A stretch of DNA of 64,000 nucleotides from Symbiodinium natans (lineage: Eukaryota; Sar; Dinophyceae; Suessiales; Symbiodiniaceae). The notes below the pieces were generated by a model that had not been told where the DNA came from, made no database searches, and was given only the letters and a program-made list of their open reading frames with translations. The stretch spans positions 325,420 to 389,419 of the forward strand of contig CAJNDS010002499.1 of assembly GCA_905221605.1 (NCBI GenBank), given 5' to 3'. Numbering within the stretch: the first letter of the stretch is position 1; every line of letters starts with the position of its first letter. The position numbers and the translations under genes are program-made. Positions 43,144 through 62,543 of this stretch are shown piece by piece.

Positions 43144-43163
43144 TTGTGAGCGCCCGCTTGCAA
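43144..43163 (+). promoter_or_regulatory. GCCC-loop hairpin H1
   Basis: TTGTGAGC-GCCC-GCTTGCAA: an 8-bp stem that needs two G-U wobbles, which would suit RNA rather than DNA. First of the leader series. Confidence 0.55.
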
Positions 43164-43266
43164 GAAGAATCCAAAGCTTGGCTTTGGATTTCGCACTGTA
43201 AACACTTTGCAAGCTGCATTGGCTCTCCCTTGAGTCTTTGTGGGTTGAGCGCTCGAAAGTTGGGTC

Positions 43267-43536
43267 AACTGAGCCCTCAGTTGTCCTGCCACCTTTCTCT
43301 AACTAGTCGAGACTGAGAACGCCCGTTCTCTTTCTCTTTGTTTCTCTTTCTTGCTTTACTAGTGAGACTGAGAACGCCCGTTCTCTTTCTCTAACGCTTC
43401 TCTTTCTTGCAACTTGCTGAGATTGAGAACGCCCGTTCTCTTTCTCTTACTTTTTACGTTGTGTTCCCTTTCTTTATTAAAGTTGGGAACGCCCGCTTCC
43501 TTCCTGTTAAGTTGCTGAGTGTGAACGCACGTTCTC
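43267..43536 (+). promoter_or_regulatory. Leader with six more hairpins upstream of ORF1
   Basis: CAACTGA-GCCC-TCAGTTG (43267-43283) is followed by three copies of GAGAAC-GCCC-GTTCTC (43315-43330, 43370-43385, 43425-43440), a degenerate GGGAAC-GCCC-GCTTCC (about 43485-43500) and GTGAAC-GCAC-GTTCTC (43521-43536). TTCTCTTTCT tracts separate them at about 55-bp spacing. The ORF1 ATG is at 43649. Repeated 5' units of this kind serve as promoter monomers in some LINEs; that role here is inference. Confidence 0.65.
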
Positions 43537-43648
43537 TTTCTTGCAAACTTCTTAAGGGTGGGAGCTTCTTTACTTTATTTGCACCTTTTGGCAAATTTGT
43601 CTTGCGCATTGTGCAGTACGGATAGCTTCGGCGTAAGGTATCTGCACC

Positions 43649-46600
43649 ATGTCGCAAGATCGAATCAGCAACATCGATGGAAGCGCATTTCAGTGTCTTG
43701 CCGACTTTATGTTGGGTCATCTCACTGAGTATGATGCTCTCTTTGCCAGAACACCATCAACACATTTGCTGGAGTATCTTAGAGATGGATGCATCGTGTC
43801 TACACAAACTATGCAAGAATTGCGCCAAGTGCAGGGCTCAGAGCTCCAATCTATCTTACTCGTCAACCCTAGTAAGAGTTTCCTTCACAATCTAAGGAAG
43901 GGTCTTACACAACAGACGAGTATAACGATCGTGAGTAATTTGCACAGCTCACTTTCCATATCAGACATCCCCTGTGTACTCTTCAGGAGTTATGATGAAG
44001 ACTTCCTTCGTCAAATCCACAGCCTGACGGTTATTGGTGCCATTGAAGTGCAGGGCAAGCGGGAACTTGTATATTTGGTCACTTACATTCCCAGCAGCTA
44101 CCCTGTCCATCACACTTGCTACTACATTGCCATAACGCCTTCCATGAAGCAAGAAGCCGGCAATACTGAAGTCATTATCGCTGGCACTGTTGGAACATTT
44201 GACGAGGAAGTTAAACACCTCAGTCGAGACTTTGGACTGGCTCACATTAGGAAGCCACAGCAGCCCATCGTTGCGTTAACTGATCAGGAGAATCGATGTG
44301 TTGTTTGCCTCAGAGCGCCTAAGATCAGCATAAGTCAACTTCAAGCTTTAATGCTGAAGGTTGAAGAGATGTATGATAAGGTGCTCAAACAAACTGAAGG
44401 CAAATCACAAATTGAGCTCCAGGTCTGGTATCGCTTTGCGCCTCTTGAAGGGATGCCGGGCAATAGTGTCAACTTCGTTGACCTCCCATATGCTATCAAC
44501 TCTGCCCGAACTAAGGATGAAGCCTTTCAAGTGCATTGCATTCTCAATCAGCACAGGCTTATGAATGCGTTCCACACTGCTCCTGGGAAGTATCTGAGGA
44601 TCTTTGCGGACCCCTATCAGCTGCAGAAGGCTATCTTGGGTCTTCGGCAAAAGCAGCTTACCATCCCTGACAGCCTCGCGTTGCATGCCGCAAGATTTCA
44701 CATTTGCAATGTGAAGAACTCACAGGAAATCTTTGCTTGGAAGGTGACTCAACCTTTCAACTCTACAGAGGTTTCTCTGCAGCTCACCTTTCACAATTGC
44801 ACCGGAGACATGCAAGACATTATTCAGGATCTTGAGTACATCACAATTCCGGTGCAATATAGAGGAATCGTACATGTATTAGCTGGCACTGATGTTGTCA
44901 TACCTGCTGTCCATGTAACTGCTACTGTCGCCGCTGCCGATGCGCTCACTCAATGTCAATATTTCGACCTTCCTTGTGGAAGAACTGAAGTGCAATTGCT
45001 GCAAGAGGTTGTTGATGCCCCAAGATGGAGCAACAAGCCCATTAATCACATTTCCGAGAACCCTAGAGAACATTTCTTGAATTGCCACTCTGGGAGCGAT
45101 AAGATTGGGCAAGGAAGACTGATCCATGTCAGAGCAAGGGATGAGTATCACCCCTTGTCCAAACAACGAATTGCTAGTACAATTTGGCACAAGGATGACC
45201 TTGAAACACATTTCCTGATCATTGACAGACAGGCGCCCTACGTTGTTATGACTGGTAAATGTGAGGATGTTCCCGAACTAGTGAAGCTGCAGAGTGTCCA
45301 GACATTTCTCAGCCAAAATGAAGCCTTTCAAGGTTGGAGATTGCCAGAAAACCTTCCTAAGGCTTCCCAAGAGGATGAAGACTTTACTGCTGAACTGGGA
45401 TCTATCCAGTACCTGCTTGTCCGCATTACTGGTAAGACTGAACTAGAGATCCCGCTAGTTCTCAAGAACGGCCAACATCTCGCTTGTCATCCGGGATCTT
45501 CTGCGAGTAACAATGTTCTCGTCTCCCTACATCAGGGCGCGCTTCTATTCCTGCCACGATGTCACTCATGTGATATCATCAAGTTGATAGGGATTAATAC
45601 TAGCGTCATCTATGCTTTTAACATCCACACTGATGATAGACTTAAGGCTACTGCAGCCAATAAGCCGAACAAAGCCAGATGTGCCAATCATCAGGATGGG
45701 AAGTCAAGCAAGGTTGCCATGGAGCAATCGGATACTGCCCAGTGCCCGACTTTGCTCCATGGAAAGCCTCCTGCTGTTAAAGGTGATGATACGGCTGCCA
45801 ATATGTTACCGGAAAATCCTGCCTCAGCACAGTTGAGTCAAGAAGGTGGGACTGGCAAAAGAAATATTGAGAGTAGCAAGGAAAAGGTTGAGATTGCTAG
45901 AAGACGTAATACTGTCCTAAGGTTCCAGGCGGAAGTCCCGGCCAACGTTCAAGAAGAAGTGCAAAGGCGCATTGCTGGCCTTTATTGCCCTGTTGCTGCT
46001 GCCTATCGGGTCATCTCGTGTGCTCAATGGAACAAAGAGCAATGCCAGCATTACGCCCCCTTTCCTAAACAAGCAGCTCTTGTCCTTGCTGCGGTTGGAT
46101 ATAATATACGTGAGGCTGCTCGAGCCAAGCTTGCACACATACTTGGTCTGACCTATCTTCAATTGGCAAGTGCTACACCGTTGGAGCTTCAAAGCTTTAC
46201 TGAGGTGTATAGTAAGGCCATTTGGGCTATTCCGGCCAAGGAGCAATACACCATGCTTGTGCAGATCCACTGCAAGTGCTCCATGTGCCAGCAGCCACAG
46301 CCCATTCTTGCTCTGCCGTTGCATTCTGAACAGGACTCCTCTGATCAGATCAGTATCCTCGCTGATCTAGGTCAACTTGCTGACCTTGCGATTGCGTGCA
46401 TGCAGCAAAACTTGAGCCCTCGCAATGACACGTGCAAACTTGCCATTCAAAGACTCCCGTCTTTCTTCTGCCTTCTCACACAGAAGACTCAGAAAAGCTC
46501 TTTTGCGCAAGTCTGCAAAAGCGAGGCGGATATCCAAAGCTTTCTTGGCAGTACGGTATCAATCATGCAACAGGCATATATTGTCGTTGCACTCGTTCTG

Positions 46601-47155
46601 CATGATCCTAGTGCTAAGCACTACCTAGTGCTACACCATGCCAAAGAACAAGCAGGAGACTCAATTCTTCTTTATGACTCAATCTACGGAGTCCGTAAAG
46701 AAAATTTGTGGGCACAATTGATTAAGGCTGAGCACTACATTGAAGCCATCTTCATCAGAAGTGTTTGTGCCAATCAGCTTTACCCCGCCACTGCTCTCAT
46801 TAACTCTTTTAATGAGATTATCCGGCATCATGCTGATCCCAGTGAAAACGCAGAACAGTATATCAGTAGTGAAACACTCACTATTGAGCAAGCTAAGATA
46901 ACGAAGGTTGCAAGCTGGGACAGCCCTGTCCCTTCTGCAACCTATATGACCATCACCTCAGAGGATGATTTTGGCTTGCCTAATCCATCCTGTGCCCATC
47001 TTCTGCCACAAGCCGAGGAATGTAAAAGCGGTACTGAATTTACTCTCGCCCAAAAGGGCAAACTCGATGAGGAGTCAGAACACCAAGCCAGTGTTAGTCT
47101 CCAACCCGACCCTAGTACTGCTCTGGCGACACAACTTGATAGTGCATCTTCCTGA
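43649..47155 (+). CDS. ORF1, 1168-residue protein of unknown function
   Basis: An uninterrupted frame from ATG at 43649 to TGA at 47153-47155. I recognise no established family. The first 680 residues have globular, hydrophobic-rich composition. A low-complexity hydrophilic linker follows (about 665-750; Lys, Ser, Gln, Ala). A second globular part holds a Cys-rich HCKCSMCQQP stretch (about 872-881). Near residue 990 a segment AKHYLVLHHA...SILLYDSIYG vaguely recalls His/Asp blocks of papain-fold proteases, but no convincing Cys block follows. The tail after about 1090 is acidic and disordered. By position it takes the place of the LINE ORF1 RNA-binding protein. The frame ends at TCC-TGA, and the methyltransferase frame continues in +1 register, so a fusion product is plausible. 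Confidence 0.8.
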   Translation: MSQDRISNIDGSAFQCLADFMLGHLTEYDALFARTPSTHLLEYLRDGCIVSTQTMQELRQVQGSELQSILLVNPSKSFLHNLRKGLTQQTSITIVSNLHSSLSISDIPCVLFRSYDEDFLRQIHSLTVIGAIEVQGKRELVYLVTYIPSSYPVHHTCYYIAITPSMKQEAGNTEVIIAGTVGTFDEEVKHLSRDFGLAHIRKPQQPIVALTDQENRCVVCLRAPKISISQLQALMLKVEEMYDKVLKQTEGKSQIELQVWYRFAPLEGMPGNSVNFVDLPYAINSARTKDEAFQVHCILNQHRLMNAFHTAPGKYLRIFADPYQLQKAILGLRQKQLTIPDSLALHAARFHICNVKNSQEIFAWKVTQPFNSTEVSLQLTFHNCTGDMQDIIQDLEYITIPVQYRGIVHVLAGTDVVIPAVHVTATVAAADALTQCQYFDLPCGRTEVQLLQEVVDAPRWSNKPINHISENPREHFLNCHSGSDKIGQGRLIHVRARDEYHPLSKQRIASTIWHKDDLETHFLIIDRQAPYVVMTGKCEDVPELVKLQSVQTFLSQNEAFQGWRLPENLPKASQEDEDFTAELGSIQYLLVRITGKTELEIPLVLKNGQHLACHPGSSASNNVLVSLHQGALLFLPRCHSCDIIKLIGINTSVIYAFNIHTDDRLKATAANKPNKARCANHQDGKSSKVAMEQSDTAQCPTLLHGKPPAVKGDDTAANMLPENPASAQLSQEGGTGKRNIESSKEKVEIARRRNTVLRFQAEVPANVQEEVQRRIAGLYCPVAAAYRVISCAQWNKEQCQHYAPFPKQAALVLAAVGYNIREAARAKLAHILGLTYLQLASATPLELQSFTEVYSKAIWAIPAKEQYTMLVQIHCKCSMCQQPQPILALPLHSEQDSSDQISILADLGQLADLAIACMQQNLSPRNDTCKLAIQRLPSFFCLLTQKTQKSSFAQVCKSEADIQSFLGSTVSIMQQAYIVVALVLHDPSAKHYLVLHHAKEQAGDSILLYDSIYGVRKENLWAQLIKAEHYIEAIFIRSVCANQLYPATALINSFNEIIRHHADPSENAEQYISSETLTIEQAKITKVASWDSPVPSATYMTITSEDDFGLPNPSCAHLLPQAEECKSGTEFTLAQKGKLDEESEHQASVSLQPDPSTALATQLDSASS
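46906..46942 (+). promoter_or_regulatory. Two-part GCCC-loop hairpin at the end of ORF1
   Basis: Inner stem GGGACA/TGTCCC closes a GCCC loop (46917-46932). An outer 7-bp stem GGTTGCA/TGCAACC (46906-46912 with 46936-46942) is separated by a small internal loop. This gives 13 perfect pairs within ORF1 coding sequence. It lies 22 nt before an ATG at 46965 in the methyltransferase frame and about 208 nt before the TCC-TGA site. Confidence 0.65.
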
Positions 47156-49445
47156 AGTGCACTCCATTGCTACTGATTCCGATGAGGAACAGAGACCGCA
47201 ACAACATGAAGTTCAAACTGCGCTGAACTCTGAGAAGAATGGCTTTGATAGGGGCAGCCAGCCCCTTAAAGCCAAGCCCGACTTGAGCTCTGATTCTCAG
47301 ATGCGTAGAGTCAAGAAAAGCCTCGATAAGCTTAACAATGCCAAGCCTGTCTCCAAGAGAAAAGATGGTAAAATTGGAAGCAGGAACAATCAAATTAATG
47401 CTGTCTCGTCGGAAGACTGCATACAGGTCGCACTTGGTGTTGAACGTTACATCATCTTATCGCTTTTTGATGGATGCGGAATATCACGTGCTGTCACCGT
47501 TGAATGCCTCAAGCAACAACCTGTTGCGGCTGTGAGTGCAGAAAGTGACAGCGTCCTTCGCGCCCTCATATGCCATAAGTATGACTATGACAAAAGCCAA
47601 AGATGGGCTCTTGACTCGCACCGTGTGCCATCGATCGCAATTGATGACGTTTGGACTCTACTTAAAGAGGATTACCGATTGCTGCGTGAATGTTTGTCCT
47701 TCCTGGGAAGGATTCATCCACAAAAAACAGCCATCATCATTCCCGCCGGTTCCCCCTGCCAAGATCTCACGGTTGCAGGGTCCAGCTCAGGTGGATTAGG
47801 ACTTCTGGGAGACCGCTCGCAACACATGCTTGTCTTATACGCGATTTTGCTTGCATTCCAAAGCATTGAACCCAGTATCCTTCAGTGCGTGCACATCTTC
47901 CTTGAAAATGCTGGGTCTATGAAGCCCATCCACCAGGGCTTCATTCAGCAGATCTTCGGAATACGTGATTGTTGCTGCCATCATATTGCTGGAGCTACAT
48001 TCGGCCATGTTGAAAGGAAAAGAAAATTCTTTACTAGATATGGGCAAATTGGCACCTTCAGCAATCGCCCCACTCCGTGGTTCCAAGGATGGCGTCCTGT
48101 TGCGGAACACATGTGCGGAATAAAACCCCCTGGCGAAAAGCTCAAGCCTTGGCTTCGTCCCAAACGCTTTGATCGCGAGAGGGGGCTTCGATTGGCTGCA
48201 TACTTTTACCACCCCTCTGCCCTTCTTTACCATGTACCCAGCTTCGGCGGAGCTGAAGCCTTCCAGAGGCAATTCTCACAAGCGGCTAATACCTCCAATG
48301 GGGTTCCAAATCTACAATGGGAAAAATTTGTTCCTGATGGACCCATTGGCCTGCGCTTTGTAACAGATGTTCAGAAGCTTTCTCTTCAAGCGGACGTCCC
48401 AAGCCTTGCAGCAATGGATCGCTTTGCTGAAGCTAATTACGAACTTCTCCGTGCAGAAAATGCTTTCCTTATTGGTGATAGTGGCATTCCTCCCTTCAGG
48501 GTTGCTCACTACAAGGAAATGTTGAGAGATGCTGAGCTCGATATCTGGCTTGCAGATGTGGAAGAACACATTAATGATATGTGTATTGCTTCCATTGTTG
48601 GGAACTGCTTCTACCCTGGTGCTCTCAAAGCTGCGATCAAACACGCATCCCTTCGAGAGTTACTGAATGAAAACCCCGACAGTCATTGGAAGCCGCTTCC
48701 CCTCTCACAGTTTCTCCAATACTGGCCTAGCTATGGCCAACAAGTTCTTGCTGCTACTACAGCTGTTAAGCTACAAGACAAGTTTTCGCATAAGTTTCAT
48801 GCGCCTTTTCCATGCGATGAACTTAATGCTGTTGGCTGGCTCAAACAAGGTTTAATTGTCAATAAACCTGTTGTTCTGGAGTATACCCCCGGCCAAGGTA
48901 AATTCCAAGGCATTAGAGAGAGCGCGTCCGGCATTCCTAGAGGAATTTCCTTTGTGACGGAAACTCGATTCCATCAAACGCAAGACTTATTGCAAGAAAA
49001 AGGGATCCCATCGGCCATCCAGCGTGTCTTGCAAATTGTCGACCCTCAATTACAACTTTTGTGTGGATCGAGACGCAATGTCATGGCCAATTTGTGCAGA
49101 GAGACTGTTGCGAATCTCGGTGCCAAGTTTGCCTTACATTTTCTTGACTTCCCTGCACAAGGGTGGTGCCTGATCAGCTTTCTCAAAGCGTTGCATCTTG
49201 AGTTTGTCGCGTATAGAGACGAGTTCATCCCTCAATTCCTCCTTGTAAAGGGACAGCAAAATACTCTCTATGTGCAGCACTTGAAAGATGCCAACGCCCG
49301 CAAGAAGTCTCCGCCAGTCGACTTCTTCCTATATGTCGAACAAGATGATCAATGTGCCTTAGCAATGCTCAATGCTTCCCAGGCTCGTGATACTGTGCAT
49401 GCGCTTACCCAAGCATCGATCATTGAGGTCGTTGACATTGAATGA
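46965..49445 (+). CDS. Cytosine-5 DNA methyltransferase domain protein (retroelement ORF2)
   Basis: C5 methyltransferases move a methyl group from S-adenosylmethionine to cytosine. Numbering from ATG 46965, motif I is ILSLFDGCGISRA (164-176), motif IV is AGSPCQDLTVAG with catalytic Cys265, motif VI is FLENAGSM (Glu314), motif VIII is GHVERKRKFF (347-356) and motif X is IASIVGNCFYPG (541-552). FDG, GSPC and the motif spacing recall DNMT3-type rather than bacterial enzymes. The first about 64 residues look like shadow of ORF1, so translation probably enters by +1 frameshift at 47150. Residues 565-826 are a C-terminal extension I do not recognise. Retroelement-borne methyltransferases of dinoflagellates are described in the literature and could mark new copies. 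Confidence 0.85.
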   Translation: MILACLIHPVPIFCHKPRNVKAVLNLLSPKRANSMRSQNTKPVLVSNPTLVLLWRHNLIVHLPEVHSIATDSDEEQRPQQHEVQTALNSEKNGFDRGSQPLKAKPDLSSDSQMRRVKKSLDKLNNAKPVSKRKDGKIGSRNNQINAVSSEDCIQVALGVERYIILSLFDGCGISRAVTVECLKQQPVAAVSAESDSVLRALICHKYDYDKSQRWALDSHRVPSIAIDDVWTLLKEDYRLLRECLSFLGRIHPQKTAIIIPAGSPCQDLTVAGSSSGGLGLLGDRSQHMLVLYAILLAFQSIEPSILQCVHIFLENAGSMKPIHQGFIQQIFGIRDCCCHHIAGATFGHVERKRKFFTRYGQIGTFSNRPTPWFQGWRPVAEHMCGIKPPGEKLKPWLRPKRFDRERGLRLAAYFYHPSALLYHVPSFGGAEAFQRQFSQAANTSNGVPNLQWEKFVPDGPIGLRFVTDVQKLSLQADVPSLAAMDRFAEANYELLRAENAFLIGDSGIPPFRVAHYKEMLRDAELDIWLADVEEHINDMCIASIVGNCFYPGALKAAIKHASLRELLNENPDSHWKPLPLSQFLQYWPSYGQQVLAATTAVKLQDKFSHKFHAPFPCDELNAVGWLKQGLIVNKPVVLEYTPGQGKFQGIRESASGIPRGISFVTETRFHQTQDLLQEKGIPSAIQRVLQIVDPQLQLLCGSRRNVMANLCRETVANLGAKFALHFLDFPAQGWCLISFLKALHLEFVAYRDEFIPQFLLVKGQQNTLYVQHLKDANARKKSPPVDFFLYVEQDDQCALAMLNASQARDTVHALTQASIIEVVDIE
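47147..47155 (+). promoter_or_regulatory. Candidate +1 frameshift site TCT-TCC-TGA
   Basis: ORF1 terminates at TCC-TGA. Slipping +1 on TCC reads GAA GTG CAC TCC and continues directly into the methyltransferase frame (EVHSIATDSDEEQ). UCC-UGA is the shift site of ornithine decarboxylase antizyme mRNAs. Upstream of this point the methyltransferase frame looks like non-coding shadow sequence, while ORF1 still looks coding, so the true crossover appears to be here. A single-base mutation would look the same. Confidence 0.5.
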
Positions 49446-49448
49446 AGA

Positions 49449-49466
49449 GGAGCCAGCCCTGGCACC
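49449..49466 (+). promoter_or_regulatory. GCCC-loop hairpin after the methyltransferase stop
   Basis: Arms GGAGCCA and TGGCACC around GCCC pair at six of seven positions (one A-A mismatch). It begins 3 nt after the TGA at 49443-49445. Confidence 0.55.
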
Positions 49467-49518
49467 TTCCTTCACAAAGTAATCGAAGAGAACAGCCAGC
49501 TACCTACGCCTTGTCTGA

Positions 49519-49950
49519 TATTTGAGGGTAACGAAGCTGCCTGCCTTGCATTTGCACGGCCATACTATCCTCTGTTCCCCTTACCTTGGGCAAAGGGAAC
49601 TCTTTGCGCTCTTCTTAACCCCATACTTTGCTGAGAATTATACCAGTAAAGCCTTTGCTTCAGATTGCAACTCGAACGAAGCCTGGCTTAGCGAGGTCTT
49701 GCGCGACTTCTCTTGCTTTGCTAAGCTTGCTCTACCGTGTCGACAGGCTGTGTATATTGGTATTGACGCACGAGGCGCACATTACACCACATATAAGCAA
49801 GGTACGGTGCATCAACAGACTGTCACCCACAACAACATCCCCTCCACAATTCCCACCCAAGAAAAGGCACTGCGCATTTATGTCTACGATCGGCAACCTG
49901 CTGTCTACCATTGCTTCTATGGGGTCCATCGGGACCCTTTGCCCCTATGA
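49519..49950 (+). CDS. Small ORF3 between methyltransferase and RT, unknown function
   Basis: An open frame of about 143 codons bounded upstream by TGA at 49516-49518 and containing no Met codon, so it needs a non-ATG start (TTG at 49522 is the earliest candidate) or entry by frameshift or reinitiation. The peptide looks like real protein: aromatic-rich middle (ALFLTPYFAENYTSK), then AVYIGIDARGAHYTTYKQG and RIYVYDRQPAVYHCFYG. IDARGAHYT closely resembles IDMKGAHYT in the C-terminal domain of the RNase H ORF, hinting at a shared or duplicated fold. Its TGA overlaps the ATG of the reverse transcriptase ORF as ATGA, which suggests coupled translation. Confidence 0.55.
   Translation, partial: YLRVTKLPALHLHGHTILCSPYLGQRELFALFLTPYFAENYTSKAFASDCNSNEAWLSEVLRDFSCFAKLALPCRQAVYIGIDARGAHYTTYKQGTVHQQTVTHNNIPSTIPTQEKALRIYVYDRQPAVYHCFYGVHRDPLPL
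49922..49950 (+). promoter_or_regulatory. Hairpin followed by ATGA stop/start overlap
   Basis: GGGTCC-ATCG-GGACCC (49922-49937) is a perfect 6-bp stem ending 9 nt before ATGA at 49947-49950, where ORF3 stops and the reverse transcriptase ORF starts. AUGA overlaps couple ORF2 to ORF1 translation in the insect LINE SART1, with downstream structure helping. Here the structure is upstream. Confidence 0.55.
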
Positions 49951-52900: not shown

Positions 52901-53003
52901 GCGTGGCCGCATGTCAAAATATGAATGGGAGCAAGCAACGTCTATTGATGAAATCCATTGGGTTGGACAAAGGAAATGTCAGATGTTTCCTTGCGCATGC
53001 TGA
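49947..53003 (+). CDS. LINE AP-endonuclease and reverse transcriptase polyprotein
   Basis: 1018 residues from ATG 49947. The endonuclease, which would nick target DNA, shows SWNVTSL (Asn92), LLQETKW (Glu123), GGDFN (Asp227, Asn229), HLDHYL (Asp268) and GGHHL (His297), the complete exonuclease-endonuclease-phosphatase set. The reverse transcriptase follows with SPGPDGVPYAFY (578-589), SDFAKAF (Asp700), HQGLAMG (Gln755-Gly756) and AYMDD (791-794), all intact. It would copy element RNA at the nick. The start is chosen because this ATG overlaps the ORF3 stop; an upstream TTG at 49911 is less likely. The frame stops at 53001-53003 shortly after the thumb, and the next ORF overlaps it in the -1 register. 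The enzyme looks functional. Confidence 0.93.
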   Translation: MTTIRDVVIKARSTTFLDHLNAYVACRRHRAELKLALMANDSRPFNLIAAINLQLATEELELALNLIADRLVPYFDTIPKEPCKLQAVVSWNVTSLCTFDTIGLAKLRTIGALAHQTPVLLQETKWNAACLHRFRQATARINTIASLAIWKESGHSGGVAVCLPQDYKVVETVDLVPGFALAVLVRFRSVCYWLLSVYWHPDQWGKLFPALSAFVKDATHVVVLGGDFNAVNQQKEGEYAHLLAQGDMIECKSDRPTFEQGSTCSHLDHYLISSSLYLSAKICSVSWKHKKVTGGHHLVKIRFRPKHKLDKDVPAIPVRTVPAAAFSVPPATTDLPGIEAAETSPSHLLLRKLINCTKARLIEEQNKGQKLCPSDALVAQKATCFLWHANLRAQAGNSIAALIRKLVRLLNRSTGATVGVNASTVTSLARHITIPPFTPSGNGSAELPRHWLQEALNRLHLGAELKTAPSPSLRSLVAQRDLQVDKSKIKWQAFRKICPRIIDSQQVRSENGQLITSMSQFDAALRATRAFWHHFPCQYDNQWDKLLQPYAQRAPFVPADLPDESIIFKAIITTKDSSPGPDGVPYAFYRQNPSYFANLLGDHMWEMCLSQADHPLQALVFIPKADKGAYADNYRPLDMPDTCDRIIDSAIYAVLAESFKESLHPAQALLNHFKEPQANYAQMQHYLELKDAQYTVMLSDFAKAFERVNPWWVLQCLAARAAPAWIKAYVIHLMFGRRTQHKVQGFLLEPISIHQGLAMGRATSVVLFCLALDPLIWALHDISSFIRLTAYMDDNSAASKGLHWVEKAQRTFEPAHSAGLQVLRHQCFQAGFISLQVLPGDVRACIAQFGVAWIESKQLPPSNTLTIGGPSLHQALCLLLQQNIYSLDQAMRMSLTRLDVRHGLLLVSGSKCYVLSSDMLLCMCTQQQNFQALLACIIASPCKCKCKTSILTNKPFKTADILLLDMTPWGSKIIAETATMLGFILRGRMSKYEWEQATSIDEIHWVGQRKCQMFPCAC

Positions 53004-56000: not shown

Positions 56001-56383
56001 ACGTCAAAAATAGAAACGCAGTTTCGCCCTTCATCGAAGGGGCTACTGAAGCGTTGGTTCAGCTCATCCAGGTGGGGCAGCACTGTCATCCACAGGTCAC
56101 ACCTAACCAGGAATTTGCTAACCTACAAGATGTCTTTGCTATTACCACCACGAAGAGTGAATTTAATGCGGCAGTTGATGCGTTAAACGCTGCGGGTATC
56201 GCGTGTCATAGCCCTGCTCTCCCAAAGCGCCCAAAGGCAACCACCAACAGGGTGTCCAAGCGCCTTATCCTGGAAGTTCAGGATATACTAGAGGTCGAGA
56301 GGCAAAGAGACGATAAAAGGAGACGCGTTGATGTTACAGCTGTTCCGCGTAGGGGATTGTGGGTAACACCCCCCTCGTTGTGA
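52976..56383 (+). CDS. CCHC knuckle, RNase H and polymerase-like domain protein
   Basis: 1135 residues from ATG 52976; ATG 52997 is also possible, since ATGcTGA overlaps the RT stop. The frame is open upstream to about 52958, so frameshift entry from the RT ORF could also occur. Residues 1-250 look like the RT C-terminal part. A Cys cluster CRVCLR...CKLC lies at about 272-302, and a LINE-type knuckle CLLCG-x7-H-x4-C at Cys359, Cys362, His371, Cys376. RNase H, which degrades RNA in the hybrid, has Asp597 (FDGS), Glu640, Asp668 (QGDC) and Asp719 (VADHLAG), a full DEDD set. Residues 850-1060 hold EIDMKGAHYTLLR (Asp857), KHLLQRAVG (905-913), NRNWATFALEAAESF (about 970-984) and LWVHDGVYV (His1005-Asp1006), an order like motifs A, B and C of family A polymerases. 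That last call is tentative. Confidence 0.85.
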   Translation: MSDVSLRMLILDKALCNMLRRNKQALSLTASMPARIQFHTAFIASCPLFCNSLYAFTKRHMLKALAIASSTILRRPWIQAKHMAGVFDFIKAPRAMDPEIGAILSKVGLLLRWRGKWALNVILHDLENAHAANLPFYHSLLVQARQAIQKSVSLGDSPIIEQFKSKCHDALSAALPRVSPHSGGRKLKQAQIALRAVLRNAACVQAQGYLRQKVANHAHERQLCAILLALNLPPKNVASDVTRCYALRWAIVEEADAYFVYRQYASRDEQCRVCLRKQTGKELWYDNGFGSMPVCKLCHLNQSCPDDLAHAISCMLPCCDVNQAPLLQCAAMPGAPARTITYRAAIPNEHQCTFIQSHCLLCGLGANTTEHWLTACVVTKASLFIVLVTLGYAGTASFDSLCHTALPKINVEGGIDKKFCAVLLAWIATIRRYTMEQQCTWHPGWCETPQRAKHISNIPKLASRLWNTIPRMLLPKALPAWWVDTERCKPCCNDGGLHIEVKHPLSALIKASAQGVTVSPRNANIGDVLATLDAQHYLLAPMYQQTLGVPNVALWPKMCHCGNLHLKVTALRPIPAGTPLIVELKPVKDTHLVAQFDGSCHVQEGIGGAGGIVWSPGPVPVILETIAIPLQPCPDSMFAEICAADATLDKALSLAASNQIREVILQGDCINIVKHFAGALRLHREDLVRKLDNMWQKLTHTPITVHWSYVPRVGNKVADHLAGIAANSLRYEAPLHEDVFFDSGEGQPHMQINTECFPPILLPSKQWHLQAIQDLHSGAETISLEAPPLWNPELLLRFCLYNRIKPPPELDTTWPGLVQYRRPSLHPQGRYYAIRHWQTSKRLTRFLAIGPNAIEIDMKGAHYTLLRLLTCHSPTHPPLPTLLEARELFSSHLARAPKAQTVQTKHLLQRAVGMDSNAFLRHVYEGSIAAYAIPPALASFLAHLVQAKATLQVMIQQGIPFYQPDARVNNRNWATFALEAAESFVMRKGLAAMLPYCAGTVLWVHDGVYVKNRNAVSPFIEGATEALVQLIQVGQHCHPQVTPNQEFANLQDVFAITTTKSEFNAAVDALNAAGIACHSPALPKRPKATTNRVSKRLILEVQDILEVERQRDDKRRRVDVTAVPRRGLWVTPPSL

Positions 56384-56434
56384 TGCGTGTAGTCCCCATT
56401 TCAACCACCCTCCCTCTTTCGTGATGGCGGCACC

Positions 56435-56470
56435 TTTGGCTCAGACCAGTTGTGAACGCCCGGGCACAAC
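56435..56470 (+). promoter_or_regulatory. Leader-like TTTGGCTCA plus GCCC-loop hairpin
   Basis: TTTGGCTCA (56435-56443) matches part of the spliced-leader 3' end. Six nt later 9-nt arms starting GTTGTG and ending CACAAC enclose GCCC (56450-56471), pairing at seven of nine positions. The ATG at 56476 follows 4 nt after. Confidence 0.5.
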
Positions 56471-56475
56471 CAAAC

Positions 56476-57057
56476 ATGCTGGCCGCCACACGCTGCCTCC
56501 TGGCTTGGCGTTACCATGAAGCCATTGGTAGTCATTCCAGCGCAGCTGACTTCGAACTCACAGTCCTCCCTGCTGCAGCGGGAGCGATCCTCGTGGCTCT
56601 CTTAGAGGAAAGCAAGTCGAACGAAGCCCTTTCCCCGTACCATAAGGATCGTTTATATCGAGGCGTCTCCTTTGGTAATCCACTGATCATTCACGAGATT
56701 GTCGAAGATCTGGATGAGGAAAAACTCCTACTTGCATGGACTCTCATTGAAGTCATTGCAAGGCTGGACGCTGCCACTCAACCTCGCGCTACCGTGTCAA
56801 TGCTATGGAAAATAAGTGCACCAAATCTCCGTGCCATCTCGTGCGTTGGAGAACGTGCGCTTGCCCATTCACTTTCGGAGCACTTTTCTTTGACCCCCAA
56901 GTGGTCTTCACGAGTTGTCGGGGCTTTAATCGGGCACAAAACTGGATGGGGTAGGGTAGAGGCATTGCTCCAGGTCTTAACGCCAAGAGCAACAGTCATT
57001 GCCCGTGAACTGTGTGAGTGTGAACAATTCCCCTATCACTTCTTTTGGCCGTGGTAG
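56476..57057 (+). CDS. Unknown 193-residue helical protein
   Basis: ATG 56476 is chosen because it directly follows the hairpin; an in-frame GTG at 56452 lies inside the hairpin. The product is rich in Ala, Leu and Glu and predicted helical (AAGAILVALLEESKSNEAL, DLDEEKLLLAWTLIEVIARL), with no signal peptide or membrane segment and no recognisable catalytic motif. It is similar in length and style, but not clearly in sequence, to the 61553-62245 product. It lies 92 nt after the RNase H ORF and ends in TAG. GC content rises from here on compared with the five preceding ORFs, so a different origin is possible. Confidence 0.6.
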   Translation: MLAATRCLLAWRYHEAIGSHSSAADFELTVLPAAAGAILVALLEESKSNEALSPYHKDRLYRGVSFGNPLIIHEIVEDLDEEKLLLAWTLIEVIARLDAATQPRATVSMLWKISAPNLRAISCVGERALAHSLSEHFSLTPKWSSRVVGALIGHKTGWGRVEALLQVLTPRATVIARELCECEQFPYHFFWPW

Positions 57058-57404
57058 TCATACCTTGTTTCTTCTCACACAATAGATCCAGAGCCACGTT
57101 ATTGGCTTTAATGCCCCTGGCTGGACCCACCTCACTTTGGCCATCTGTTCGCAGACAGTGGAGCTATGTGCCAATGTGTCCACTGAGTGAGGGTGTGGTT
57201 GCCCCTTGTACTTTGTGCTCGGTGGGCTTTATTGCCGCTTATGGTACTCGTACCTTTACGTGCTCCTCTGTTATTTGCTTCGTTGTTTGATCACTGTTAA
57301 CATTGTGATCACCTACCCCTCCCCATCCGAATATAGTTGGCACATGCGTGACAGTTATTTTGCTCAAGCGCTCGTTATGGGAGCACTGACCCTTAACCCG
57401 CGCA
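57058..57404 (+). other. Intergenic spacer with TGATCAC inverted repeat
   Basis: No GCCC hairpin found. TGATCAC (57288-57294) and GTGATCA (57305-57311) form a 7-bp inverted repeat around TGTTAACATT. A short hydrophobic frame at 57045-57290 is not supported. Confidence 0.5.
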
Positions 57405-58757
57405 ATGGCCTTCTGTCTGGATTTGGCGCCGGATCATCTTAGGAAGATTCTTGGCTCTTCCATCCATACTTCGCCCTGCCTCTTCTCGTATGACAACAAA
57501 TTCTGCACCGTGGAGTCCAGTATCGCCTTTTGCATTATGCAGCTGGCTGGCACGGTCTCCATTCGTGCACACTTGGATGCCGATGTAAAGTCCTCCGAAT
57601 TGGTTGGGGCTGCTCTCCAGCTTATCCACCGCTGTTGGTCCAAGGGACTTGCCCTCCAGTTAAGGGAGATAGATGGATGCGGATGCCTTGAGTGGCAGCA
57701 ATGGGGGTTGCAAACTCTGCGCGCTATGGGTTCGGTGAGTGTGGCGTGGCATAATGTACTTGCTGGCCACATCGGGCAGGCGTATATAATTGCGCTCCCG
57801 GTAACATTGCATGCATCTTGCAGAATTGCCACTACCACCCTGGGCAGCTACGAGGTGTTTTTTCTTCGGTTGAGCTCGCTGTCCTGTCTGCTTGTTTTCC
57901 GTCTTCATGCACCTCTTCTCGCATACCAAAGGTCACCTCCCACCCTGCTTGCTCGTGCCACCCACCATGGTTTTTGGCCTGGCGTTCTTAAACGCCCCTC
58001 TGGGCCCCTCCCAGCCGAGAATGGCACCGGTGCGCCACGAGTGCAAGAGTACCAGTTCACCACCCAAACGGCCTGCGCCTTTCACGAACAGGGTCTTGGT
58101 GCGACCTGTGCTTTCGTTGGCCAAATCGCCACCTTCGTCCTCGTTGAAGTTGGACTCGAGTTTGGATGTATGCTCAAGTACACCATGTGTTGCTCACCCT
58201 ACACGCACGGAGAGTGGTACCTCCTCGACTCTACCCAACTAGGCGCTGAACTTCTTCCGCTCCTCCTGGAAAACATGGCCTTCCGACTTGATCTCAAGCT
58301 GGTGCAAATCCAAGTAGTTGTCCAGGGACTGACTTTTGCTGTCCCTCTAGTCAGCTTTCTTGTTGATTGGCCTGTTGGCACGGTCTTTATTGCTGTTGCC
58401 TTCCCCTCCTTTGAGCACATGGTAGAGGCGCATCCGGTCCTGGTAGGGTCTTACTTTAGTAGGCGCCTCTGTATTGTCAATCCACCTGATGGGATGCTCC
58501 CTCTCAATCTCACAATCGATCCAATGCTGCCGGTCCTAATGCTGCAAATACTAATTGTGCAACACCTGCGGCAACGGAGTGGTTACCTTGAAAGTCGGGC
58601 TTTCGTACTTTGCGATGAACAGGGCTTTGTTGCGGACACATGCACCAAAATCCAAACAGCGTTCCATGAGGATGCGAGGGTGCTTCTTAAGTACAAGTGC
58701 CTCACCTTCGAAGGTCACCTGTTTAGATTGGTCTCCGCCTCCCACAGCCTACTTTGA
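57405..58757 (+). CDS. Unknown 450-residue protein, paralogue of 59004-60320
   Basis: ATG 57405 to TGA 58755. The C-terminal third aligns with the next ORF: FLVDWPVGTVF against ALVDWPVGTPF, then AHPVLVGSY against AHPPVTVGW, RQRSGYLESRAFVLCDEQG against RERSGHLECRSFVLADSQG, and DARVLLKYK against NANILLKMQ. No known domain is recognised. Residues about 165-235 (Pro/Arg-rich, between LRLSSLSCL and AFVGQIATF) read less naturally than the +1 frame over the same bases (57950-58150), so a pair of compensating frameshifts is possible. Moderately hydrophobic, with no clear membrane helix. Confidence 0.65.
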   Translation: MAFCLDLAPDHLRKILGSSIHTSPCLFSYDNKFCTVESSIAFCIMQLAGTVSIRAHLDADVKSSELVGAALQLIHRCWSKGLALQLREIDGCGCLEWQQWGLQTLRAMGSVSVAWHNVLAGHIGQAYIIALPVTLHASCRIATTTLGSYEVFFLRLSSLSCLLVFRLHAPLLAYQRSPPTLLARATHHGFWPGVLKRPSGPLPAENGTGAPRVQEYQFTTQTACAFHEQGLGATCAFVGQIATFVLVEVGLEFGCMLKYTMCCSPYTHGEWYLLDSTQLGAELLPLLLENMAFRLDLKLVQIQVVVQGLTFAVPLVSFLVDWPVGTVFIAVAFPSFEHMVEAHPVLVGSYFSRRLCIVNPPDGMLPLNLTIDPMLPVLMLQILIVQHLRQRSGYLESRAFVLCDEQGFVADTCTKIQTAFHEDARVLLKYKCLTFEGHLFRLVSASHSLL

Positions 58758-58804
58758 TGCTAGGACGGCTGGCTTTGCTGCATTGGTAACGCCTTCTTGC
58801 CGCC

Positions 58805-58982
58805 TTTTGGCTCACACTAGCGTAGTAGTGCTTTGGCTCATGGGAGTCTGAGGCTGCCCCGCGACGTCACTTTCCTGCCGCCACACTATACGACTCGTTG
58901 CCTTGCGGCCCAACTTGAGCATGTCAACAGAGGAAGATTGCCTTGACAGCGACCCAAGGCAGCTTGAGTACGCCCGTACTCT
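58805..58982 (+). promoter_or_regulatory. Two leader-like motifs and a GCCC-loop hairpin
   Basis: TTTTGGCTCA (58805-58814) and TTTGGCTCA (58832-58840) resemble the spliced-leader end. GAGTAC-GCCC-GTACTC (58967-58982) is a perfect 6-bp stem with the GCCC loop, 22 nt before the next long frame. A short ATG frame (58921-59031, 36 codons, MSTEEDCLDSDP) spans the hairpin and may be the true N-terminus if a frameshift joins it. Confidence 0.55.
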
Positions 58983-59003
58983 TGCTCTCCGCAAGCTCTG
59001 TCC

Positions 59004-60320
59004 TTGGATTTGTCCCCGGTGGCCTTGACGCTGGTCCTAGGCAATGACCCTCTAATTCCTCTTTGCGGAGGTGGAGAGGACCCTGTGCAAAGACTGACAT
59101 CGTCAGTCGCGCAACGCCTTCTTGTGGATCTCTGCAACATCAAGGTTGTTCTTGCCCTGCCATTGCAGAGTGTTCATGGCACTGAAAATGCCGCTGATGC
59201 CTTCCAGGCTTGGCTTAGTTGGAGCATAAGACAAGAAATAAAGATCGGCCAGGTCTCGGACGGCTTAGACTTTCATTGGCACATGCTTCATTGGTGCCAA
59301 TTGGCTATCCAGTCTGTGGCCTGTCTTGCATCAGTTAATTCGCACTGGTTCCGACTTCTCTTGGAAGGTCTGAGGGGAATGCCCTTCTTTGCGATTCCCA
59401 CGGGGGAACACGCCGGAGCGTTCTTTGGAGTCACGCCTCTTGACGAATGCACTTACGACGTCCATGCAGTTGGAGACTTCCCACTCGCGAGCCTCCGCTT
59501 CCTCCGACTGCGTTCACCGTTTACAGCTGACTTTGCCAATCAAACTCCTGCAAGGCAGCTCCTGGGCGGGCGACTTGCTCATGAGCATCATTGGCCTGCC
59601 CAAATGGATTCTCCTCACCCGCAGGCAGAGGGCCACTGTGGCAGTCTATGGCCTCGCACACAGTCCACCTTGCAGCGTCACGTGCCTGCCCCTTGGTCAG
59701 TCCGTGAAGCAGCTTCTCGTTGTAGGGTAAGGTATGCTGGCCTTGTTGCCAATCTCACCCTTGTGCGCGTTACTCAACATCAAGGTTGTATGATTCAAAT
59801 CGTTTGGTGCGTTGCCCCCTTTCGACAAGAAGCTCTTGAAGGGGATACTCTCCAACTTACCACTCAACTTTTCCCTGCCTTATGTGCTTTGTGCCCGAAC
59901 CGCCTGCAGCCAGATCTCCTTGGGGTCTTCGCTGTTTCGCAACTTAGTCACCTACCTGTCCCTCCGTGCTGTGCCCTGGTAGATTGGCCGGTGGGCACAC
60001 CGTTCACTGTATATGCCTACAATGATCTCCTGGCTGTAAGGGCTGCGCATCCACCCGTCACTGTTGGCTGGCCGTCCTGGCACCTGCAGCTCCTCAACCC
60101 AAGCGATTGGAATGACCTACCTTGCCCTGTTTTGGCTTCTTGTAGCTGGCCTGTGTTCCTGTTGATGGTCAAATGCGTGCAAGCGATGAGAGAACGCAGT
60201 GGGCACCTCGAGTGTCGATCTTTTGTCCTGGCCGACTCACAAGGGGCAGTTGCGAGTCCTGCGTCGGCAGTACTCCGAGCTTTTGCTCCGAATGCAAACA
60301 TACTTCTGAAAATGCAGTAG
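59004..60320 (+). CDS. Unknown 438-residue protein, paralogue of 57405-58757
   Basis: The frame opens without an ATG (TTG 59004); the first internal Met is about 95 codons in. Either translation starts at a non-ATG codon or it enters from the ATG frame at 58921, which ends at 59029-59031. C-terminal similarity to the preceding ORF (VDWPVGTPF, RERSGHLECRSF, LLKMQ) shows a tandem duplication followed by divergence. Residues about 180-245 are Pro/His-rich and look out of frame; the +1 frame there (SSWAGDLLMSIIGLPKWILL) reads better, as in the paralogue. Function unknown; ends in TAG. Confidence 0.6.
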   Translation: MDLSPVALTLVLGNDPLIPLCGGGEDPVQRLTSSVAQRLLVDLCNIKVVLALPLQSVHGTENAADAFQAWLSWSIRQEIKIGQVSDGLDFHWHMLHWCQLAIQSVACLASVNSHWFRLLLEGLRGMPFFAIPTGEHAGAFFGVTPLDECTYDVHAVGDFPLASLRFLRLRSPFTADFANQTPARQLLGGRLAHEHHWPAQMDSPHPQAEGHCGSLWPRTQSTLQRHVPAPWSVREAASRCRVRYAGLVANLTLVRVTQHQGCMIQIVWCVAPFRQEALEGDTLQLTTQLFPALCALCPNRLQPDLLGVFAVSQLSHLPVPPCCALVDWPVGTPFTVYAYNDLLAVRAAHPPVTVGWPSWHLQLLNPSDWNDLPCPVLASCSWPVFLLMVKCVQAMRERSGHLECRSFVLADSQGAVASPASAVLRAFAPNANILLKMQ

Positions 60321-60485
60321 GGACCCCGCCCCTTCACTAATGCTTGGCCTTGGAAGCATGAGGGTCTCGTTCTCCAGTTTCACACTGCTTTCGCGGTTTT
60401 GCATTCTAGGGAATGTGTTGGCGGGACTTTTTCATGGGTGCTGGTGCTGGCTCAGGTCAACTCTGTAGATCCGAGGTAGTCCACC
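60321..60485. other. Spacer with TGGCTCA
   Basis: Contains TGGCTCA at 60448-60454, another partial match to the spliced-leader end. No ORF supported. Confidence 0.35.
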
Positions 60486-60504
60486 GCCTTCCCCTCAGGA
60501 AGGC
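60486..60504 (+). promoter_or_regulatory. Hairpin 9 nt upstream of ATG 60514
   Basis: GCCTTCC-CCTCA-GGAAGGC: a perfect 7-bp stem with a 5-nt loop. It has the same 9-nt spacing to the start codon as the hairpin before the reverse transcriptase ORF, but the loop is not GCCC. Confidence 0.55.
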
Positions 60505-60513
60505 ATCACTGAC

Positions 60514-61134
60514 ATGGTTGAGGCATCCAGCCCTCAAATCCATATGGAACGTCTTGCTCCGCTGCTTGTGATTGTCTCGCAGTTGAGCCATACGTCGGCC
60601 TACTGTAGGCCCGCCTCCAGGCACAGCGATAGACACCTTCACGACTGCCCATTGGATGCATTGCGTTGTATCCTCTTTGATGCGTGCGCTGTGTGCTTGA
60701 GCCTGTGGTTAATTGTAGAGCCGCGCGAAGGCCTCTCCGAGCCTCCACAAGTGTACCTCTGGCAGCAACAACAGTCGAATTGGGGTTGTTGTTATACTCG
60801 CCTCCCTCACGTCGCTCCTGGAGTCGAGAATTATAGGGTTGCCCTCCCATCCCTGAGGGAAACCGCGAGAGTGGCTGCTGTTTGTCGGCGCTGGGGAGGT
60901 ATCATCGGGGCTTGGGCATCGCGCAGGCGTTTTGTGACATCGACGTCAACCTTCGCCAGTACACAGCGTGTTGTGCCCGTCGTGCGTGTGAACTGCACCC
61001 ATTTCAAATTGCAGCTTCATGTTACGGAATTGATGGACTTGGGTGTCGCGCGAATGCGAAACAATGCTATACTCTTCCCCTCCTCTAGCCAGGCTAGGAC
61101 CCCAGTCACTGGGCAAGTGGAGGAGGACGGTTGA
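60514..61134 (+). CDS. Unknown 206-residue protein
   Basis: ATG 60514 to TGA 61132-61134. It contains LFDACAVCLSLWLIVEPREG, a Gln-rich QVYLWQQQQSNWGCCY and an Arg-rich VAAVCRRWGGIIGAWASRRR, then VVPVVRVNCTHFKLQLHVTE. No family recognised. The start is supported by the hairpin at 60486-60504. Coding status rests on length and position only. Confidence 0.45.
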   Translation: MVEASSPQIHMERLAPLLVIVSQLSHTSAYCRPASRHSDRHLHDCPLDALRCILFDACAVCLSLWLIVEPREGLSEPPQVYLWQQQQSNWGCCYTRLPHVAPGVENYRVALPSLRETARVAAVCRRWGGIIGAWASRRRFVTSTSTFASTQRVVPVVRVNCTHFKLQLHVTELMDLGVARMRNNAILFPSSSQARTPVTGQVEEDG

Positions 61135-61552
61135 GTTGCTCATGCCCTCACACGGCGGTGTAGGAACCTGCATCTCTTCTCAAGGCAGTAGATCCATTTA
61201 CGTTCTCTGTACAAGTTTGACGAGCAGTGACCCCTCACCGCAACTTCCGAGCAGGGGCTCGGTGAAGCGGCTCAGGAGCTCCCGTTCGGGTTGCTCCCTT
61301 GCTCCCGAGTATTACCTGCGGAGAATCTTGTGAGGGTGCGGGAGTGATTTGATGTTGGGTACGTGAGTGCGCCCGCACTCACACGCCCTAGTCCCCCGCA
61401 TGGATTGACAGTTTGTTCCTGTGGCTCATAGCCCTCTCAGCCGCGAACATAAAGGAGTGATGGTATTACCCGCTAACTTGCCCCCTTGTTCTGTGCCGCC
61501 AGGGCTCACAGGAGCAGGCGCCCGCTTGCCCTCCCCGAACTAACTGCCCGGC
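61135..61552 (+). promoter_or_regulatory. Spacer with two GCCC-loop hairpins and TGGCTCA
   Basis: GTGAGTGC-GCCC-GCACTCAC (61363-61382) is a perfect 8-bp stem. GCAGGC-GCCC-GCTTGC (61514-61529) has a 6-bp stem with one G-U wobble, 23 nt before ATG 61553. TGGCTCA is at 61422-61428. Confidence 0.6.
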
Positions 61553-62245
61553 ATGGCTGCTTCGTTGGTCATTGGTGGCAGCCTTTACACTGCTGTCAAT
61601 GGAGATGGCGACAGTGACTGGGAAAGATGCTACCCTGACGAACACCCGGAGATCTTCTCCAGCGAGCCCATCCTCGAAGGCCACGGCCACACTTGTAGTG
61701 CTGGCTGGATATCGCTCACCAAGCTCCTCGTACTGCAAGGAATCCGCGATGCCTCGGCAGCCCAAGGACGTCCTAATCAACGGACCCTCGCCATGGTTGT
61801 TGCGGCCGAACTCGGGCACTCTGTTGGAGGTCATCGTGCCTGGCTTGCACACCACCTTCGAGATCTTTCGCAGGATTTGAGGAACGAGCTTGCCCAGGAG
61901 TACGGGGCGTTACTGGCTATGTTCAGACGTCCGCCTGGACCACAGCAGAATGCCCTTTTAGCCTGGGCCAGGCCAATCATTGTGCATCGCCAGGAAGATT
62001 TGCCAATTTACCTCATAAAAGCGCATTTGGAGCAGCATCTTTTGCTTGCATGGCGTTTCACTGCCGATAAAGTCAATTTGCTTTTGCAAGCGATGTCCGA
62101 TGCTGTCCCCAATGATAATGCCGTCATTCTGGAGTGGGTAGCGTGCTTCCTCGATGAACGTATTGCTACCGACATTCTCGAGCATTTAGATGACGAGACC
62201 ATGCATCTGCTTGAGGACAATCGGCATTCGGATAGTGACATCTAA
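61553..62245 (+). CDS. Unknown 230-residue protein
   Basis: ATG 61553 to TAA 62243-62245. The N-terminal 70 residues are acidic and Ser/Gly-rich (SLYTAVNGDGDSDWERCYPDE). The rest is helical and Leu-rich (QHLLLAWRFTADKVNLLLQA, RIATDILEHLDDETMHLLED), similar in style to the 56476-57057 product. No catalytic motif recognised. The preceding GCCC hairpins support the start. Confidence 0.6.
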   Translation: MAASLVIGGSLYTAVNGDGDSDWERCYPDEHPEIFSSEPILEGHGHTCSAGWISLTKLLVLQGIRDASAAQGRPNQRTLAMVVAAELGHSVGGHRAWLAHHLRDLSQDLRNELAQEYGALLAMFRRPPGPQQNALLAWARPIIVHRQEDLPIYLIKAHLEQHLLLAWRFTADKVNLLLQAMSDAVPNDNAVILEWVACFLDERIATDILEHLDDETMHLLEDNRHSDSDI

Positions 62246-62543
62246 CGCTGACCTTGTGCGAATACGGAACAAACGGCGGCCTAGTACATCGGTCGTTATC
62301 CATGGTCATGCGGCATTCCTGTAATGTCATGCTGTTGTCTTGACCGTTTTGGAAAGTTGTAACCATTGATCATGTTATACTGCTGATGTAGTCTCCAACT
62401 GAAGGGAGCTGAGTCAGGGGAAGTTGGGAGCAAGCTTGTTGTTGTGTGACATTCTTTGCGCTGGACGGCACGGCTCTCAGGCAAGACTGCCCAGTCTTCC
62501 TCTACCTTGCCCCATCAATTGGGTAGGCTGCCCCTTCTTCGCC
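62246..62543 (+). promoter_or_regulatory. Spacer with GCCC-loop hairpin
   Basis: AAGACT-GCCC-AGTCTT (62483-62498) is a perfect 6-bp stem with the GCCC loop, 45 nt before ATG 62544. It lies in an open frame that extends upstream to a TTG at 62424, so the ATG start is a choice. Confidence 0.6.

Follow-up and report, generated by a model that had tools for sequence, protein, structure and literature searches.

Hairpins with a constant GCCC loop on variable stems along a probable giant spliced-leader-tagged retrotransposon of Symbiodinium natans

The locus and its features

We analyzed a window of 64,000 nucleotides (nt) from the dinoflagellate Symbiodinium natans (assembly GCA_905221605.1, contig CAJNDS010002499.1, positions 325,420 to 389,419, forward strand). 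It forms the terminal part of contig C2187, and the genome searched comprises 759 Mb in 2,543 contigs. From position 42,959 onward, the window carries hairpins that share the tetraloop GCCC while their stems differ. These hairpins very likely (probability about 0.93) belong to one giant retrotransposon of the long interspersed nuclear element (LINE) type, which is spliced-leader-tagged and A-tailed. They lie on its sense strand, in its leader, its open reading frames (ORFs) and its 3′ half, and their pairing would be kept by selection. The features, in window coordinates, are as follows.

42959..64000, + strand: giant LINE-type retrotransposon (probable), 5′ part; runs off the window at the contig end
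42959..43648, + strand: 5′ leader with hairpin cluster; the leader sequence is also in short derivatives
43143..43164, + strand: GCCC hairpin CTTGTGAGC/GCTTGCAAG with two G-U pairs; not the minimum-energy fold
43266..43283, + strand: GCCC hairpin CAACTGA/TCAGTTG
43309..43336, + strand: GCCC hairpin GAGAAC/GTTCTC with 2x2 internal loop and 4-bp outer stem; unit copy 1
43364..43391, + strand: GCCC hairpin, GAGAAC/GTTCTC unit copy 2
43419..43446, + strand: GCCC hairpin, GAGAAC/GTTCTC unit copy 3
43602..43659, + strand: stable structure around the first ATG, core GTGCAGTACGGATAGCTTCGGCGTAAGGTATCTGCAC; z -4.6
43649..49950, + strand: ORF A, with N-terminal region, possible DNMT3-like domain and C-terminal region; broken in the window copy
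45717..45762, + strand: GCCC hairpin in ORF A with long outer stem; z -6.1; core identical in C2170 and C1035
46905..46942, + strand: GCCC hairpin in ORF A, GGGACA/TGTCCC with outer stem; z -4.3; in C2170 and C1035 core identical, outer stem altered
49447..49468, + strand: GCCC hairpin of 4 bp, A-A mismatch and 4 bp; within ORF A where the frame is open; score 16.5
49947..56383, + strand: ORF B, with AP endonuclease, reverse transcriptase and RNase H; broken in the window copy
51597..51618, + strand: GCCC hairpin in ORF B; G-U to A-U in copies at 82-85% identity
53505..53520, + strand: GCCC hairpin in ORF B, GAGTGA/TCACTC with bulge and outer stem; z -4.2; C501 and C1934 differ in the bulge only
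56449..56470, + strand: weak GCCC hairpin directly 3′ of ORF B; score 12; fold z -0.68
56425..63413, + strand: ORFs 5-10 of the element; no Pfam match; colinear in C902
58961..58986, + strand: GCCC hairpin GAGTAC/GTACTC with 2x2 internal loop and 3-bp outer stem
61363..61382, + strand: GCCC hairpin GTGAGTGC/GCACTCAC; two occurrences in C902
61514..61529, + strand: GCCC hairpin GCAGGC/GCTTGC (G-U); fold z -0.52
62483..62498, + strand: GCCC hairpin AAGACT/AGTCTT
62955..62972, + strand: GCCC hairpin in ORF 10, GATGCGA/TCGCATC

Hairpins in the window

We scanned positions 43,000-64,000, where GCCC occurs 116 times. Perfect arms of at least 6 nt flank 10 of these occurrences, whereas among 200 first-order Markov shuffles the average was 0.02 and none had more than 1. 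With a score tolerant of G-U pairs and mismatches, 16 of the 116 passed (shuffle mean 0.44). The same score applied to all 256 tetraloops gave 4 for the runner-up loop. On the antisense strand, no GCCC hairpin between 42,001 and 64,000 reached the tolerant score. The hairpins are real and far beyond chance, as a preliminary description made from the sequence alone had claimed. All ten strong hairpins of that description, three of them the GAGAAC unit, are in place. The two weaker ones it gave at 49449 and 56450 also exist, with loops at 49,456 and 56,458, and we found others at 45,737, 51,606, 53,511 and 62,962.

Folding of 17 GCCC stretches gave z of -1 or below in 14 and weaker values in three (43,491, z +0.84; 56,458; 61,520). 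The GCCC hairpin is present in 15 of the 17 minimum-energy folds; a different fold has the lowest energy at 43,152, and the fold at 43,491 contains no GCCC hairpin. Several hairpins, such as those at 45,737, 46,923 and 53,511, continue beyond an internal loop or bulge into an outer stem. Rfam gave no match in the window at gathering thresholds, and for the leader at E values up to 10 only two long non-coding RNA matches far below the thresholds. Protein scans of IMG/VR and GTDB contigs turned up no relatives. Twelve IMG/VR matches to a 16-nt palindrome were dismissed, being at about chance level for such a collection by our own estimate.

The carrier element and its copies

The element start at 42,959 is common to seven copies. 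Copies on other contigs match the window from this position or slightly later, over varied lengths and mostly at 96-99% identity. The copy on contig C902 is 98-99% colinear with the window and could be followed end to end over ~32.9 kb. Its order is spliced leader, 5′ leader with five GCCC hairpins, ORF A, ORF B, a multi-ORF 3′ half and a conserved tail (...GATGTAGTAAAGAGGCGTCAGTCC) followed by oligo-A. On C1079, an ORF1 match and the tail lie on one strand ~32 kb apart, judged from match positions, which would fit a second complete copy. Exact matches in the genome number 166 for the tail and 187 for the leader unit GAGAACGCCCGTTCTC, whose reversed control gave 0. With regard to CG depletion relative to the genome, a trait of the SymbioLINE-Dnmt elements compared below, the observed/expected ratio of CG is 0.68 in C902 (0.62 in ORFs A-B) and 0.67-0.75 in five non-element stretches.

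The sequence CCGTA...TTGGCTCAAG, or a close variant of it, stands before the element in 11 of 13 listed copies (in C349 as the shorter CCGTAGCCATTTTG); a clean one is lacking before C3, C336 and the window copy. We take this sequence to be the dinoflagellate spliced leader, and its presence before most copies suggests that the element RNA is trans-spliced. The assignment agrees with the accessible part of a report on spliced-leader-tagged retrogenes of dinoflagellates (PMC12014239), in which, as here, retroposed copies bear a spliced-leader remnant at the 5′ end. Unlike in those retrogenes, the tagged RNA here would be the retrotransposon's own.

Short derivatives combine the leader with the same tail (C59, ~4.4 kb; C349, ~0.87 kb). 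They are flanked by target-site duplications of 14 nt and 16 nt, respectively; these are two of the four copies tested, both short derivatives. No such duplication was found for C902, with 60 nt of 5′ flank compared, or for the 4-kb form on C336, whose 5′ end is unsure. Target-site duplication is seen for short derivatives, not for a full-length copy. The tail is followed by 10-12 A in C902, C59, C336 and C349. Leader hairpins of score at least 13 number five in C59, four in C349, four in the first leader of C336 and three in the second leader of C446. The leader, tail, target-site duplications and spliced leaders of these copies and derivatives together point to LINE-type retroposition of a trans-spliced, A-tailed RNA.

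We made several further observations on the copies. A derivative family of 4.2-4.4 kb (C59 1-4430, C336 195-4235 and C446) has the same leader and tail around a different body with repeats, and leader-tail pairs occur at a similar distance on C850, C401, C172 and C1815 (positions only). Three partial copies keep the 5′ end while the match stops at 45,293 (C3), 44,181 (C343) or 59,338 (C169), whereas LINE copies are usually truncated at the 5′ end. Inside the window element there are one-mismatch spliced-leader-like sites at 45,183, 57,358 and 58,832. The C47 copy is preceded by three consecutive spliced-leader ends.

Strand and position of the hairpins

In C902, all 25 hairpins of score at least 13 are on the sense strand and none is on the antisense strand; 200 second-order shuffles averaged 0.97 and never exceeded 4. 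The preliminary description had named equal density in shuffled or unrelated sequence as the outcome that would speak against it, and the density in C902 is far from that. At a score of at least 15, GCCC has 19 hairpins and the next tetraloop 4. In seven stretches of non-element DNA (121 kb), the counts for the two strands were 4 and 9, some of these hairpins being in G/C-rich repeats.

The preliminary description also placed the hairpins at ORF borders. We set the ORF spans of C902 ourselves, with ORFs A and B taken whole, and they amount to 85% of the body. Eleven of the 20 body hairpins lie inside these spans and nine in the other 15%; of the nine, two are in ORF-10-like sequence and one is in a 37-nt repeat thereof. 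Inter-ORF DNA is favored, yet the hairpins do not mark the borders as such. In some other copies, open frames extend for ~2103 codons over ORF1 and ORF2 (ORF A) and ~2217 codons over ORF3 and ORF4 (ORF B), among 40 scored of 229 candidates for ORF A and 63 of 179 for ORF B. Some ORF borders in the window therefore reflect frame decay of this copy, and the hairpins at 46,923 and 49,456 are inside ORF A where the long frame is kept. In view of these long single frames in other copies, we no longer regard ORF borders as what defines the hairpin locations. The ATGs of ORFs 5, 9 and 10 have hairpins 18-55 nt upstream, and the 200 nt preceding the ATG of ORF B, ORF 6 or ORF 8 contain none of score at least 9. 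A near-regular spacing of eight body hairpins (coefficient of variation 0.23, p 0.0006) was set aside because the eight had been chosen after the fact.

Conservation and compensatory changes

We compared five copies at 82-85% identity (C2170, C1035, C1934, C501 and C80), and they keep most of the hairpins tested. In the hairpin cores within ORFs, the window and C2170 differ at 1 of 26 third positions (background rate 0.32; Fisher p 5.6e-4), the single change converting G-U to A-U. The corresponding counts are 0/12 for C1035 (p 0.013), 1/21 for C1934 (p 0.0019), 1/20 for C501 (p 0.0030) and 1/14 for C80 (p 0.022); the five tests are not independent because the copies share history. Among the changes seen in the cores, G-U became A-U at 49,456 and at 51,606, and one change falls in the bulge of 53,511. 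Complete hairpins including the outer stem do not consistently exceed other sequence in conservation: in a comparison with 40-nt windows, from which leader rows were excluded (the alignment misplaced some leader units), 28% of windows did as well as the whole hairpin with its outer stem at 46,923 and 72% at 49,456.

When all GCCC of 18 leaders were taken, paired or not, they gave 28 distinct contexts, in which 124 of 168 first-six pairs are formed (74%), compared with 45-58% for slid arms. Permuting the 3′ arms among 28 hairpins gave a mean of 83 pairs against 151 of 168 observed. The permutation is partly circular since its hairpins were picked by pairing, so the test on all leader GCCC is the fairer one. 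Among the first 100 of 269 genome matches to GRGARC-GCCC-GYTCYC, read by eye, 94 are fully Watson-Crick (78 GAGAAC/GTTCTC, 11 GGGAAC/GTTCCC, 5 GGGAGC/GCTCCC), one has a G-U pair and five have A-C. For GATGYGA-GCCC-TCRCATC, the first 100 of 455 matches, also by eye, comprise 73 T-A, 26 C-G, 1 T-G and 0 C-A (reversed control, 0). C902 carries relatives of the 62,962 hairpin ~10-12 kb downstream, with GATGTGA/TCACATC at 30,406 and 31,070. In the C902 frame at 31,052, the double stem change alters both amino acids (RDASPRIS to RDVSPHIS). Such compensatory changes are few events seen many times.

The confinement to the sense strand, the low silent divergence in the cores and the compensatory pair changes, seen in the leader and the 3′ half, support selection on RNA structure, which was also the view of the preliminary description, as what would keep the pairing. 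Several observations weigh against our overall reading, including the protein-binding role proposed below. Copies are related by descent, so their counts are not independent events. Some hairpins are lost: the one at 43,152 was not found in C1035 and C2170, and the one at 51,606 is partly lost in C501, so that the persistence of pairing in other copies holds for most hairpins tested and fails for these. The closing pair at 43,273 is altered in C349. Two leader units have other loops, namely ACCC in C336 and C446 and GCAC near 43,527. The relative of the 62,962 hairpin at 31,946 of C902 (GATGTGA/TCCCATC) has one broken pair. The reversed control of the leader stem pattern GRGARC-GCCC-GYTCYC gave 18 matches, so some of the 269 are chance. 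The enrichment outside ORFs is not predicted by pure coating of the RNA. In the 4.4-kb derivative, the body contains a single hairpin, of score 14; mobility therefore does not require an RNA densely covered with sites from end to end.

Possible role of the hairpins

We propose, with slightly less than even confidence, that the hairpins are putative binding sites for one RNA-binding protein and serve ribonucleoprotein (RNP) assembly or self-marking. A protein that recognizes the loop itself, and for which any stem suffices, would be expected to select for a constant loop on exchangeable stems. The multiplicity, the strand, the sites inside ORFs and the leader hairpins in short derivatives suggest recognition of the element's own RNA. 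Each hairpin would present its GCCC loop to the protein, most likely an element-encoded one. Binding may start at the leader cluster, and through the scattered body sites the protein could coat, compact or mark its own RNA over ~33 kb. On the RNA coated or marked in this way, the element's enzymes would act rather than on host mRNAs, and short derivatives retaining leader and tail could be carried along. The binding partner, the status of the transcript as genomic RNA and every step of this mechanism are what we infer from sequence. Packaging was among the roles named in the preliminary description, and it is this role or RNP assembly that we conditionally prefer. If so, the array would make it possible to test how a LINE-type element picks out its own RNA, which has long been a question, and to do so in a ~33-kb element copied from spliced-leader-tagged RNA.

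The hairpins may instead control translation by aiding ribosome entry, stop or restart, with the leader cluster and the ATG structure as the entry site. The cluster does lie upstream of ORF A, a stable and conserved structure encloses the ATG, and the closeness of hairpins to ORFs 5, 9 and 10 and the excess of body hairpins outside ORFs agree with such a role. However, the 11 body hairpins within ORF spans, five of them in ORFs A and B, and the lack of hairpins before ORFs B, 6 and 8 make this unlikely. Cistron separation or ribosome re-entry, suggested by the preliminary description, finds no support as the main role, because many hairpins are in long ORFs, some borders come from decay and the densest cluster is upstream of the first ATG. 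Marking of cut, trans-splice or protection sites in the processing or stabilization of a long transcript would suit the spliced leaders before most copies and the one-mismatch sites within the element. Nevertheless, the C902 insert keeps its hairpins uncut over ~33 kb, and the 3′ breakpoints of the three partial copies lie away from hairpins, so we hold this role to be distinctly unlikely. A host RNA-binding protein that controls the element would follow the same logic as Smaug recognition elements, in which, according to the accessible part of PMC4053848, a constant loop sits on a non-specific stem. Such a host factor is improbable: GCCC is not the CNGG loop of those elements, the sampled non-element DNA is not enriched, and an element would be expected to lose sites of host silencing.

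Quite improbable, too, is that the GCCC loops are RNA targets of the DNMT3-like enzyme of ORF A, which would place 5-methylcytosine in loop cytosines at many sites as a self-mark picking this RNA for reverse transcription. RNA methylation by such an enzyme was raised as a possibility by the authors of PMC5890265, in the part accessible. If it were true, a DNA methyltransferase would have turned into a self-recognizing RNA methyltransferase, and the hairpin array would be its missing substrate. At the DNA level, cruciform or recombination sites could move ORFs as cassettes, and the 3′ half does contain repeats of some related segments. Palindromes acting as DNA should occur with GCCC on either strand alike, whereas it is on the sense strand in all 25 hairpins; moreover, G-U pairs occur and the ORF order is the same in C902. 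Cassettes were rejected because of the strand bias and are very improbable. Chance, or functionless copying of one palindrome, would account for the three leader units as tandem copies, but most stems are unrelated in sequence, and the shuffles and the low silent divergence leave it scarcely credible.

Comparison with known systems

The nearest element found is SymbioLINE-Dnmt, a group of DNMT-bearing Symbiodinium LINEs (PMC5890265). As far as the accessible part of that report describes them, they share with our element a DNMT ORF upstream of an endonuclease/reverse transcriptase/RNase H ORF, although the DNMT match is weak here. Conserved 5′ and 3′ ends and target-site duplications are also common to both, the latter seen here for short derivatives only. 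In the same description, SymbioLINE-Dnmt lacks a poly-A tail whereas this element has an oligo-A of 10-12 A, and the spliced-leader start, the length of ~33 kb, the many extra ORFs and the hairpin array distinguish ours. The words 'hairpin', 'inverted repeat' and 'spliced leader' do not occur in the main text of PMC5890265. We do not file the element under SymbioLINE-Dnmt, since it has an oligo-A tail where those elements have none and was compared with published elements by description.

The dispersed packaging signals of hepatitis B virus and enteroviruses (PMC7612645, PMC7793301), in the parts of those papers accessible, are likewise many stem-loops with one loop motif over a long RNA. They differ in loop motif, host and element type, and the binding protein here is putative. 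C902 has such stem-loops (25, sense only) on what would be a genomic RNA. Smaug recognition elements, in the accessible part of their description, act in host mRNAs, whereas the GCCC loops are in a mobile element. Literature searches that covered hairpins of dinoflagellates, giant retrotransposons and loops of GCCC did not return a description of the array, most subscription papers being outside the search. Nor did they yield an earlier account of any retrotransposon with an array of hairpins of constant loop and variable stem; in agreement with the preliminary description, which knew of no such element, the signature had none in Rfam or in this literature phrase search.

Genes of the element

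ORF B matches Pfam RVT_1 (E 1.7e-13) and RVT_3 (E 3.4e-11); its endonuclease (6.4e-4) and RNase_H (6.1e-4) matches are short of the curated Pfam cut-offs. For ORF A, a 1409-aa protein (cluster of 89) spans from within ORF1 to the ORF A end. With a profile of 13 sequences, DNMT3A/3B/3C chains made up 27 of the 28 listed PDB matches (best E 0.021). No Pfam DNA_methylase match was found in the window ORF A protein, and among eight relatives scanned there was one weak match (P0024, E 0.037). The methyltransferase-like, DNMT3-like identity of ORF A is thus weakly indicated. Structures predicted from single sequences for the methyltransferase region (pLDDT 32.5) and for the ORF B C-terminus (pLDDT 36.0, poor) were set aside.

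In the ORF B C-terminus (55319-56380), IDMKGAHYTLL and VHDGVYV recall a polymerase palm by eye, with no family match; a GAHYT-like motif is also near 49,770 (BLAST E 0.003). ORFs 6 and 7 (57390-60320) are tandem paralogues of 28% identity without a family match, and the ORF 6 cluster has 41 members. None of ORFs 5-10 of the window has a Pfam match. The C902 3′ half contains a ~1866-codon frame at ~22647-28247 with a weak AAA/helicase-like match (E 2.9e-4, short of the cut-off). In the structure around the first ATG, the core is nearly identical in ten distinct versions, including those that diverge downstream, and by eye the outer stem appears to change together with its partner arm.

Elsewhere in the window, there is a 6.5-kb direct duplication (19494-26020 and 27385-33924, 99.4% identity), which contains AACCCTA-like and CCCCCTTAAG repeats.

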